NCBI GenBank assembly: GCA_003142855.1
Contig: PLNW01000136.1
Location: forward strand, 62,001-126,000
Origin: Myxococcales bacterium
GTDB taxonomy: Bacteria > Myxococcota_A > Polyangia > Fen-1088
Direction: 5' to 3'
Length of the DNA stretch: 64,000 bases
In this document: positions 54,105 to 57,717 of the stretch, in pieces
Numbering within the stretch: the first letter of the stretch is position 1
How the letters are laid out: each line of letters opens with the position of its first letter
Translations under genes and position numbers: made by a program
Notes under the pieces: model-generated
Databases searched by the model: none
The model's input: only the letters and a program-made list of their open reading frames with translations
What the model was told of the DNA's origin: nothing

Positions 54105-54776
54105 TTAGCCTTTTCCCATTTCGGCTTCCACCCTTGCCACCAAGGATCGGGACGCGAAGAGCGATCTTCTTACGACTGCAGCCAATCGGCGCACCTGCTG
54201 CGATGTTTTGTGCAAGTGGCTGGCCACGCGGTCCGGCACCGGCAAGGACTGCAGCAGCTCCTTGCAAAAGCGCGGATGGTGGCCTCCTTCCTGACCGGCG
54301 GCCAGCGCAGCCTGCACGGGTTGCGACAGCAAGAAAGGAACCAAACCCGCAGCCTCGAACCCAGTCCGCCCGCGGAGAACGAAGAACTCGGTGCTTGCGA
54401 CTACCGCATTCCCGCCTGGGCGCAGGCGAAAAAGCGCCTCATCAATCAGCGCCACTTGCCGAAGGTAGGGCCGCAAGCGCGAGATGATGACGTCACCAGC
54501 CTGCACCCGACGCTTGGCGCTGCCCATGCTCGCCGGCGGCACTGGATCGTGTCGAAACACCACGAAGCCCTCGTAGGCGTGCGTGGTATCGAGAATGAGA
54601 ACCGCGCCCGGCGACTTCCACGATCTTGCGGAGACGTTCTCCGCGACGATGTCCACCAGGTCGGACAGGCAGCACCGTGCGACGACCTCGACGTGCCGGC
54701 GGGGATCGAAGCGCTCCGGCGCCAGCACGAGCCCGTCGCCCAGGTCGGCCACACGGCGCAGAACGGGAATGCCCAT
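54105..54776 (-). CDS. Type I restriction specificity (HsdS)-like half-protein
   Basis: 223 residues, about half of a normal HsdS (400-450). It begins with MGIPVLRRVADLGDGLVLAPERFDP and the TRD-like segment that includes AGDVIISRLRPYLRQVALI and STEFFVLRGR, and ends in a coiled coil (SQQVRRLAAVVRRSLFASRSLVARVEAE) as HsdS conserved regions do. With only one target-recognition domain it might recognise a half-site and act as a dimer. The stop of the HsdM-like gene lies four bases upstream of its start codon, in one operon. No HsdR gene is present in the window. Confidence 0.78.
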   Translation of the reverse strand: MGIPVLRRVADLGDGLVLAPERFDPRRHVEVVARCCLSDLVDIVAENVSARSWKSPGAVLILDTTHAYEGFVVFRHDPVPPASMGSAKRRVQAGDVIISRLRPYLRQVALIDEALFRLRPGGNAVVASTEFFVLRGRTGFEAAGLVPFLLSQPVQAALAAGQEGGHHPRFCKELLQSLPVPDRVASHLHKTSQQVRRLAAVVRRSLFASRSLVARVEAEMGKG

Positions 54777-54779
54777 GGT

Positions 54780-55991
54780 TCAGGCGCCCCCTTGCACAAT
54801 CTCGAAGCGGCGCCGAACCAGCGGCGTGGCCTGCCCAAGGTCATGGTCAATCGCCGTGCCATTCGCTGCGTACGCGAGTCGCCCGCGATGGTCTTTGCCG
54901 TCACGTTCGCTGATGAAAAACAGGATTTCTTCGTCGCGAAAGTGACGGGTCGGCTTGGGACGCTTGCTGCCGATGACCACGCAGGCCTTCTGGCTGGTGT
55001 GGGGTCGAAAGGTGTTCCTGCCCAGGCCGAGCACCGCCACCACGGCCACACGTTCGAGCAACCAGGAACGCAAATACGCCCATTGCTCGGCGCCAACCTT
55101 GTTGTGAGGAAGCACAATGGCCAGGCGTCCCTGCGGCTTGAGAAGTTCCACGCAGCGTTCGAGGAACAAGACATCGCGTTCGACGCGATGGCCGCGCGCA
55201 AGCTCATAGGAATCGGCGTAGTCGGAGCCCACGTCCCCGGCAAAGGGCGGATTGGTCAGCACAACGTCGAAGCCGCGAAATCTTGGCTCTTGCGCGCGCA
55301 TGAGGTCTTCCAAGAGCGGGGCTGGCTTGGCTCGGCGCTGGCGCTCCGGGCGCCTCAGACTGTCGACCTGCATGACCCGCGCAGTCTCCTGATCACTGGC
55401 GGCCAACATCACCCGGGCAACCCGCAGGGCCCGAGGATCTTGATCGAAGCCCCACACCGAGCAGCGGGGCTCCTGCAAAAGGGCGTGGCGAAGAAAGCCG
55501 CCCGAGCCGCAGGCCGGATCGACCACGCGCTCGCCGGGCGCGGGCTTGACCATGGCGACCACTTCGGCGATCACATGCCGGGGAGTGAAGTACTGGCCCT
55601 TCTGGCCTTTGGCGGCCCTTGTGACCATGAACTCGAAGATGGCATCGAGCCCGACCAAGTCATCCGCGAGCAAGCGCACCCGATTCAGCACCGAGGCACA
55701 GCGCACGAGCTCGGGCCCACTCAGGCGAGTCGTGGCCCCGGGCTCAAGAATCCCGCGCCATCGCTCGCCGGCCGCCCGCAACAGCCGGTTGACTTCGCAC
55801 ACGGCTCGGTCATCGCGCTGCCGCGCAAGAAAGGCTGCGCGGGCCCCGTCCCTTTCGTGCGCCAGCTTCGCCACAAGCAGCTTCAACGCCTCTTCGAAGG
55901 CGTCTTCACCGCTGTGGGCGCAGATGATCTCGTCGAGTCGAAGCGCCGCAGATTCCCAGTCGCCGTGACGAAACCCATGCCGTCTGGTCAT
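54780..55991 (-). CDS. Type I DNA N6-adenine methyltransferase subunit (HsdM-like)
   Basis: 403 residues from ATG at 55991; open codons further upstream to 56477 do not look like protein. Helical N-terminal part, then the SAM motif I in VVDPACGSGGFLRHA (near residue 160) and catalytic motif NPPF in VVLTNPPFAGD (near 250), preceded by the typical GQYFTPRHVIAEVV. It would methylate adenine N6 in DNA together with the HsdS-like protein. Shorter than usual HsdM by about 100 residues. Function as a solitary methylase or immunity unit is open. Confidence 0.9.
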   Translation of the reverse strand: MTRRHGFRHGDWESAALRLDEIICAHSGEDAFEEALKLLVAKLAHERDGARAAFLARQRDDRAVCEVNRLLRAAGERWRGILEPGATTRLSGPELVRCASVLNRVRLLADDLVGLDAIFEFMVTRAAKGQKGQYFTPRHVIAEVVAMVKPAPGERVVDPACGSGGFLRHALLQEPRCSVWGFDQDPRALRVARVMLAASDQETARVMQVDSLRRPERQRRAKPAPLLEDLMRAQEPRFRGFDVVLTNPPFAGDVGSDYADSYELARGHRVERDVLFLERCVELLKPQGRLAIVLPHNKVGAEQWAYLRSWLLERVAVVAVLGLGRNTFRPHTSQKACVVIGSKRPKPTRHFRDEEILFFISERDGKDHRGRLAYAANGTAIDHDLGQATPLVRRRFEIVQGGA

Positions 55992-56712
55992 GGGGCAACC
56001 GCAACTCCACCGGCGAGACAGATGCAGAAGAACCGTTCCATGCGGGCGGTTCACTCTAGCAGAGACCCTGCCGTCGCAATTCGCCATTCTCCGTCGATGA
56101 TACCCGGCTTGCTGACGCGCGTGTAGGACAGCGTCTGACACTGCGCCGCGGTTCTGACGTACATCGGTTTCAGCATCGCGTCTGACTGCTGCCAGGTCGT
56201 GCGGCGGGTACGCTGTCAACTGTGAAAAACATGTTGTTGGTCGGAGGCAACGGCCGCATTCGCTCGACCGCGCGCAGCCCGCGCGATGTCGGCGGCTGCC
56301 GGAGCCTGGAATCGGCCAACAGATACCTCCGGCCGAGACCAAGTTGGCTGCAGGCAGGCTGCCCGGCGTCCCTATCCCTCCCCCCCACCCCAATAACCCC
56401 GACCCCAAGTGACGCCCGGCAGTTTGTGTGCGACATCCGTCCCGACCAGCTCCTATGCCCCGTGCGGAAGGCCTCAACCGCTTCTCCGCACGGCGGCTAG
56501 GAGTGTTCCGCTCTCCCTCCCGTCTCCGATCTCAAGGAACCGGCTCTCTCACAACCTCCGTGGTTTAGGGACCGGGGACGGGAGGGAGAGCGGACTACTA
56601 CGCCTACCTCAGTTCTTCGATTCGTCGACGGCCGACGATCCGGCCCGCTGACTGCGCCGTCGGGCCGGCTTATCGGCCGGCTCTCGGAGGCGAATCCGGT
56701 GCGGCATTGCTA
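55992..56712. other. ORF-poor 720-base gap between HsdM and CPBP genes
   Basis: No gene can be supported here. Open frames (such as 56222-56500 on the plus strand) have poor composition for this genome, with PTPITPTP runs and no ribosome site. It contains two strong hairpins (56460-56594). The bases near 56670 also have the self-complementary GCCGGC twice. It may be a decayed gene, a mobile-element edge or a structured RNA. Confidence 0.7.
56460..56594. other. Two strong hairpins, structured element of unknown type
   Basis: Hairpin 1: CCGTGCGGA (56460-56468) with TCCGCACGG (56485-56493), 9 bp around a 16-base loop. Hairpin 2: an 18-bp perfect arm at 56507-56524 paired with 56577-56594, loop about 52 bases with further small complementary pieces (AACC and GGTT). 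Adjacent, in a non-coding stretch, so a structured RNA or mobile-element terminus is possible. No T-tract follows. Confidence 0.6.
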
Positions 56713-57717
56713 TCAGAGCGCCACCTTCGCGTTCCGCTTGTGCCGCCGCCAAAAGGCAAAGGCCAGGCCGGTGACGGCTAGCACCCAGACGCCGAAGAGC
56801 ACGGCTGAGGTGTAGGGGAATGCCAGCCGGACCGACGAGTCGGGCGTGAGCCGCGTGGGCAGCTCATGGCGATGGTCGAGAGCGAGCAGGTCCATGAGCA
56901 CGGCCACCGTTGCGTGCACGAGAAACCCTGCCCAGATGCTTCGAGTCTTCATCGACAGCGAGCCCAGCACGACGCCGGCCACCAGGGCCCCGCAGGCCTC
57001 AAGGTACGGCTTGGGGAAGTGAATCATCACGTAGGGGCAGACCATGAAAAAGATGGCGTTGCTGCCCAGAGCACGTGATCCCCGGACCCAGAAGCCGCGA
57101 AAGAACACTTCGAGGGCGAAGAATTGGCCCACGTAGAGCGCCTCCCAAACCGCGAGGTCGAGCCAGGAGCGAGACGCCAAGTGGTACATGGGATAGAAAG
57201 TCCCGAAGTCGCCCATGTGAGCGACCAGCGCCAGGACGGGAATCACCAACGCCAGGCAGAGCAGATAGATCCACGCGTGTTCCATAAACCCGCGCACGCG
57301 CAGGCCCAGATCAAGAGGATTCTCCTTGAACAGCAACGGCCAAACCGCCAACGGCAACAGGTAGGCCGAGTAGCGCGACAGGCCCCAATAGATGCGCCAG
57401 TAGAGATCCTCGTACAACCAGACGCGAAGGGTTCCGGGATGGTCCGCGTCGTATCGCTGCAACGCCGGCACGATGTGGGCGTCGAAGAACTCGAGGCTGC
57501 CAAAGTAGTTGATGAGGATGAGACAGAACGCGGCCAGCACCAGGGTTGCGGGCGTGCGCGGGTCGAGGCGTCCCCCTCGATTCTGGCGATGGACCGCCGC
57601 TGCGGCGTCAAGGGTCGCCCAGGTGTCGCGGAAAAACCAGACGATGATGGGCGCAAGGCCAGCCAGCAGGACGACCGAGATTCCGAACTGGCTGAGCGGG
57701 CTGTTGAGGGTGTTCAT
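56713..57717 (-). CDS. CPBP-family intramembrane protease-like protein
   Basis: 334 residues with about eight membrane helices. The ABI/CPBP motif is LEVFFRG near residue 210 (the usual EExxxR with Leu in the first position), followed by the His motifs MIHFPKP and FLVHATVAVLMDLLAL. CPBP proteins are Rce1-like proteases or self-immunity proteins. The change of the first Glu reduces certainty about catalysis, although the second Glu, the Arg and the two His are kept. The ATG lies near the small gene at 57812 on the other strand; the 720-base non-coding stretch is downstream. Confidence 0.88.
   Translation of the reverse strand: MNTLNSPLSQFGISVVLLAGLAPIIVWFFRDTWATLDAAAAVHRQNRGGRLDPRTPATLVLAAFCLILINYFGSLEFFDAHIVPALQRYDADHPGTLRVWLYEDLYWRIYWGLSRYSAYLLPLAVWPLLFKENPLDLGLRVRGFMEHAWIYLLCLALVIPVLALVAHMGDFGTFYPMYHLASRSWLDLAVWEALYVGQFFALEVFFRGFWVRGSRALGSNAIFFMVCPYVMIHFPKPYLEACGALVAGVVLGSLSMKTRSIWAGFLVHATVAVLMDLLALDHRHELPTRLTPDSSVRLAFPYTSAVLFGVWVLAVTGLAFAFWRRHKRNAKVAL

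Follow-up and report, generated by a model that had tools for sequence, protein, structure and literature searches.

The window analyzed here is a stretch of 64,000 nucleotides from a Myxococcales genome of 6.0 Mb in 166 contigs, which is 93.95% complete with 8.23% contamination. Our subject is a gap of about 720 bases in it, running from the start of an N6 DNA methyltransferase gene (55991) to the stop codon of a CPBP/CAAX-type intramembrane protease gene (56713), both of which lie on the minus strand. The latter encodes a CPBP/Rce1-like protein, whose similarity to archaeomyxosortase MrtA (62.8 of 200 bits) stays below the threshold. On the other side, the methyltransferase and its 223-aa partner had been called an HsdM/HsdS pair in the earlier note; the first half of this name agrees with the Pfam assignment, N6_Mtase, while the partner is without a match in Pfam or NCBIfam at E 0.01, and its name HsdS, going by resemblance, is putative. 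The best NCBIfam score at the pair (54105-55991) belongs to MAD2 of the methylation-associated defence system, with 149 of 720 bits, far under the cutoff. Re-examination of the sequence confirms in the gap the two hairpins reported before, with their positions. The larger one, HP-A, has a perfect stem of 18 bp (56507-56524 / 56577-56594) enclosing 52 bases, and this stem grows inward to 21 pairs with one mismatch. The smaller one has a 9-bp stem CCGTGCGGA/TCCGCACGG (56460-56468 / 56485-56493), which is lengthened outward by CTCCTA/TAGGAG to make up the whole of HP-B. Together with a long arm with a G-rich cap, P3/P4, and a distant 3' motif, they form the element described below, whose parts are collected in Table 1.

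Table 1. Parts of the element and neighbouring genes in window coordinates; for the parts of the element, the strand is the likely one (g1, the genus of the window; g5, a second genus).
Feature	Positions	Strand	Details
HP-A, long hairpin	56507..56594	minus	arms 56594-56568 and 56533-56507, loop 56567-56534; kept in 9/9 aligned copies
HP-A invariant segments	56526..56551	minus	TGAGAGAGCCG 56551-56541 (loop); GAGATCGG 56533-56526 (start of 3' arm)
HP-B, second hairpin	56450..56503	minus	9-bp core and 6-bp extension; in 7/7 g1 genomes
P3/P4 arm	56331..56447	minus	closing helix P3 56447-56439 / 56339-56331; inner helix 56422-56411 / 56370-56359
G-rich P4 cap, predicted G-quadruplex former	56374..56407	minus	ViennaRNA with quadruplex option
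3' conserved motif TGTCCTACACGCGCGTCA	56113..56130	minus	core common to g1 and g5
CPBP/CAAX-type intramembrane protease gene	56713..57717	minus	constant upstream neighbour; Pfam PF02517, E 1.2e-8; orthologues
N6 DNA methyltransferase gene	54780..55991	minus	downstream neighbour; Pfam PF02384 (N6_Mtase), E 3.3e-29
223-aa partner gene	54105..54776	minus	HsdS in the earlier note; beside the methyltransferase in 7/7 g1 genomes

Both hairpins are genuine and far outside what chance would give. HP-A is the sole hairpin in the window scoring at least 12, and three local shuffles of single bases yielded 2, 0 and 0 such hairpins, with a top score of 14 against 18 in the real sequence. Another 332,631 bases of this genome hold just five hairpins that score at least 13. 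The region 56440-56620 folds more stably than 200 of 200 shuffles on either strand, with z of -7.25 for the plus and -5.72 for the minus strand. In addition, no terminator-like site with a T run is found on either strand of 55900-57000, and the locus thus lacks the hairpin followed by a T run that marks a canonical intrinsic terminator.

In the genomes searched, the element is found in two related genera: g1, the genus of the window, with seven species-level genomes including its own, and g5, with three. When 59 relatives were searched at the DNA level, 12 genomes gave a match, including all seven of g1 and all three of g5, while the two others are weak partial matches (G008, E 0.006; G039, E 0.0095) and are set aside from the count. 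When HP-A alone is searched, 12 of the 18 family genomes match at E 1, nine of them at the locus and the rest weakly (G009, G013 and G016, E 0.24-0.51). The class-wide search with model R1 returns 13 of 317 genomes at E 0.1, among which nine are again the locus; the other four (G021, G255, G279 and G280) are rejected as other hairpins or weak matches, and the loop motif is missing in G021, G279 and G280. A pattern scan of genome contigs gives 14 stretches, of which eight, all from g1 or g5, form HP-A. Within its own genome HP-A is single-copy. Model R1, run on both strands of 382,241 bases (the window and 16 of the 20 fetched stretches of G000, that is, all but the four shortest, L126, L127, L131 and L133), finds only the locus itself, and two matches of 17-18 bases to the arms (L046 and L047) form no HP-A-like hairpin and are rejected as copies.

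HP-A lies 3' of the protease stop codon in 6 of 7 g1 and 3 of 3 g5 genomes. The distance from the stop is 3-6 nt in four of the six intact g1 copies and 108 and 118 nt in the other two, and it is 3, 47 and 49 nt in g5. A segment of about 110 bases between the stop and HP-A (56598-56710) is present in the window and G005, and is absent at nearly the same junction from G001, G002, G006 and G004, the last being the closest relative of the window. In the seventh g1 genome, G003, the 5' arm and loop of HP-A are lost, the 3' arm side is left, and the protease frame runs into the remnant, showing that these parts are either dispensable or misassembled there. The protease gene itself is spread more widely, with orthologues in 16 of 18 family genomes. 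Outside g1 and g5, neither HP-A nor its loop motif follows the CPBP stop in any of the five genomes with enough sequence (g2, g4 and g6); a sixth, G014, offers just 63 bases past the stop. The methyltransferase is found in all seven g1 genomes and is absent from the fetched g5 loci, where the downstream gene is a rhomboid protease.

In six g1 genomes (G003 being omitted for its deletion), the mean pairwise identity of HP-A is 0.938 in the 5' arm, 0.893 in the loop and 0.979 in the 3' arm; it is 0.828 in HP-B, 0.910 in the 5' side of P3 and 0.837-0.897 in the rest of the arm. Such conservation continues through HP-B and P3/P4 as far as 56330 and then falls, to about 0.63 (0.627) just beyond the arm. 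Both TGAGAGAGCCG and GAGATCGG are invariant columns in all nine HP-A sequences, so that the loop carries 11 consecutive bases unchanged across both genera. HP-B has no sequence match in g5, where the closing helix P3 is present and two G-U pairs fixed in g1 are G-C. For the P4 cap, ViennaRNA with the quadruplex option predicts a quadruplex in 7 of 7 g1 genomes. After a variable linker comes a second well-kept patch, at about 56240-56105, which ends in TGTCCTACA..GCGT, a motif roughly 200 bases beyond 56330 and found in all three g5 genomes too. The motif TGTCCTACACGCGCGTCA occurs once in the window, and its three other matches in the genome carry two mismatches each. In a pattern search of 309 genomes allowing one mismatch, nine of the ten genomes of g1 and g5 have the 3' motif at the locus, G001 being missed; the search also gives one match each in 12 of the 299 other genomes, a number to be read beside the several genomes matched by a reversed control pattern.

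No frame of the element carries a coding signature. The differences by codon position are evenly spread, with 158/160/180 in g1 and 15/13/19 in g5, in contrast with 30/19/94 for the CPBP gene between the window and G005, where 94 of 334 third positions differ. Two candidate genes are rejected on these flat counts: a frame of 66-76 codons opposite the element in g5, conserved by eye, and a g1 frame ending at 56500.

The pairing of HP-A is kept between the genera. Pairing at the same site in other genomes, whose lack the earlier note had named as telling against a structured RNA, is found in nine copies. Of their cells, 98.5% are paired and 13 show two-sided changes, and 5 of 23 pairs have changed on both sides between g1 and g5 with pairing kept. 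The paired share, the two-sided cell count and the score are reached by none of 500 shuffles, while the number of such pairs is reached by 58 of 500. Since these compensatory changes lie mostly on one split, g1 versus g5, they amount to few events. Within g1, covariation, including that in HP-B and P3/P4, shows no excess over shuffles. Overall, the proposal of a structured RNA is supported by the conservation, by the compensatory changes that separate the HP-A copies of g1 and g5, and by the missing coding signature.

The element likely lies on the minus strand, as judged from modelled folds. The consensus energy of P3/P4 is -49.2 on the minus strand versus -33.0 on the plus strand, and the outer P3 helix, read on the minus strand, has 14 G-U cells and no A-C cells. 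HP-A and HP-B together fold slightly better on the plus strand and do not discriminate between strands, while the 3' patch folds better on the strand opposite to the element (-33.8 versus -24.4). A pyrimidine-rich 5' arm was considered as a sign of strand and rejected, because such a hairpin reads alike from both strands.

From these sequence comparisons we tentatively favour, at somewhat less than an even chance, a structured RNA that is specific to this lineage and linked with the 3' end of the transcript of the protease gene. On the minus strand, the element would be the 3' continuation of the CPBP message and would be transcribed jointly with the protease gene. HP-A would close the coding part of the message, in some copies from 3-6 nt past the stop codon. 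HP-A, HP-B and the P3/P4 arm would make up a compact 3' domain, about 265 nt long, followed by the variable linker and the second conserved patch. A protein or another RNA may bind the invariant loop of HP-A; as to an antisense target, the exact 12-base complement of GTGAGAGAGCCG occurs nowhere in the genome but at the locus. Such a 3'-UTR RNA might stabilise or end the message, and could also be freed as a small RNA. The distances of HP-A from the stop codon leave no conserved interval in which a separate promoter could sit. We count for this reading the constant position behind the protease gene in all seven g1 (HP-A being whole in six) and all three g5 genomes, the pairing and two-sided cells of HP-A, the identity of 0.83-0.98 in the element versus 0.63 beyond, the even codon-position differences, the minus-strand energy and G-U cells of P3/P4, and the downstream gene that differs between genera. 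Against it we count the plus-strand lean of HP-A and HP-B and the opposite-strand lean of the 3' patch, the few two-sided events with no excess of covariation in g1, the lack of an HP-B match in g5, the half-loss of HP-A in G003, and the five CPBP-bearing genomes of g2, g4 and g6 without the element. A bolder proposal, which we regard as doubtful, is a new RNA class of about 490 nt, restricted to two genera of an uncultured myxobacterial family. It would have a long hairpin with an invariant loop, an arm capped by a quadruplex and, far off, a 3' motif conserved to the same degree as the loop, and would act in trans as a ribonucleoprotein linked to the intramembrane protease.

The main rival, rather unlikely in our judgement, is that transcription of the CPBP gene ends at HP-A and HP-B, acting as a tandem-hairpin terminator without U-tract, and that P3/P4 and the 3' patch belong to the control region of the next gene. 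The earlier view that the hairpins are not a simple terminator therefore holds as far as the missing U-tract goes, and leaves this kind of terminator in play. The nearness of HP-A to the stop codon and the short spacing of the hairpins, like that of the cluster terminators described in PMC8355165, speak for it. Elsewhere in the class, long GC-rich hairpins stand 6-14 nt past a putative open frame (at least 240 nt) at 4 of 4 loci examined in two 13-Mb genomes (L071, L072, L087 and L091, at 1501), and in G009 (g4) an unrelated perfect hairpin of 12 bp lies about 90 nt past the CPBP stop. The four hairpins are possible terminators without U-tract; three of them are also within 40 nt of a putative frame on the other strand. 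A terminator does not need an invariant loop, yet the loop of HP-A is invariant in two genera, which argues for a partner beyond simple termination; besides, such strong hairpins are too few to be the usual terminators of this genome, and conservation reaches well past them. The two roles may also be combined, HP-A of a 3'-UTR RNA doubling as a terminator without U-tract.

We consider it improbable that the element acts in cis on the downstream gene, as its 5' leader or attenuator. In the two copies read for this, those of the window and L009, some 40-125 nt separate the 3' motif from the next gene, but the genera share no target, since a methyltransferase follows in g1 and a rhomboid protease in g5, and the distances to it vary. 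The constant upstream protease, the changing downstream gene and the position of HP-A near the stop are better accounted for by a 3'-UTR RNA element than by a leader. Improbable too is a DNA element, such as a protein-binding palindrome or a cruciform, for which HP-A and HP-B are suited as near-perfect palindromes folding about equally on both strands; it is at odds with the single locus, the asymmetry of the conserved loop and the many G-U pairs that P3/P4 forms on one strand only. The end of a MITE or other mobile element, suggested before and brought to mind by the terminal-looking inverted repeats, is hardly credible, as each genome has one locus, which in all ten genomes of g1 and g5 adjoins the protease gene (with HP-A damaged in G003), searches of plasmids and phages with the element give no match, and the two viral-contig and six non-myxobacterial pattern matches were rejected for forming no HP-A hairpin. 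The earlier suggestion of an origin-like site draws no support from anything seen here.

Other long hairpins were observed in these genomes. The strongest in the sampled sequence is a perfect 21-bp hairpin (CCTCACCCCCAGCCCCTCTCC arm) at L128 6307-6415 in the genome of the window. All three g5 genomes have a second long hairpin with an HP-A-like stem and another loop (L100 2361-2460, L101 2722-2822, L102 2213-2311), about 400-500 nt 5' of a ParA-like gene that is followed by a ParB-like gene, as named by eye from the translations. Upstream of parA in other genera no hairpin of score 13 is seen, a threshold that also misses two of the three g5 hairpins.

The element is a candidate new RNA family. 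The window and the three g5 loci give no Rfam match at gathering threshold, the best sub-threshold match being a miRNA model with 23.6 of 104 bits, and no description of it appears among the papers listed by a literature search. To our knowledge, few RNAs have been described in this bacterial group. If transcribed, the element would be a candidate family exemplified in ten genomes, with an obvious neighbouring gene, and it bears on how transcripts end without U-tracts in GC-rich myxobacteria.

Among known systems, bacterial small RNAs derived from 3'-UTRs are structured and conserved and lie directly 3' of a coding gene, with no conserved promoter between. The element, as a putative RNA, resembles them in all these respects and differs in having no terminal U-tract. 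Hairpin-cluster intrinsic terminators, as described in PMC8355165, are defined on short hairpins with stems of 2-10 bp. Two hairpins, separated by fewer than 15 nt, lie there in the vicinity of a stop codon and need no U-tract. HP-A and HP-B, 3 nt apart and 3 to 118 nt from the stop, agree with this spacing, while the stem of more than 20 bp, the invariant loop and the conserved arm that follows set them apart. Finally, Pxr, the small RNA of Myxococcus xanthus, is likewise a myxobacterial RNA with several predicted stem loops (PMC5684412); the present element is much longer and lies beside a CPBP gene.
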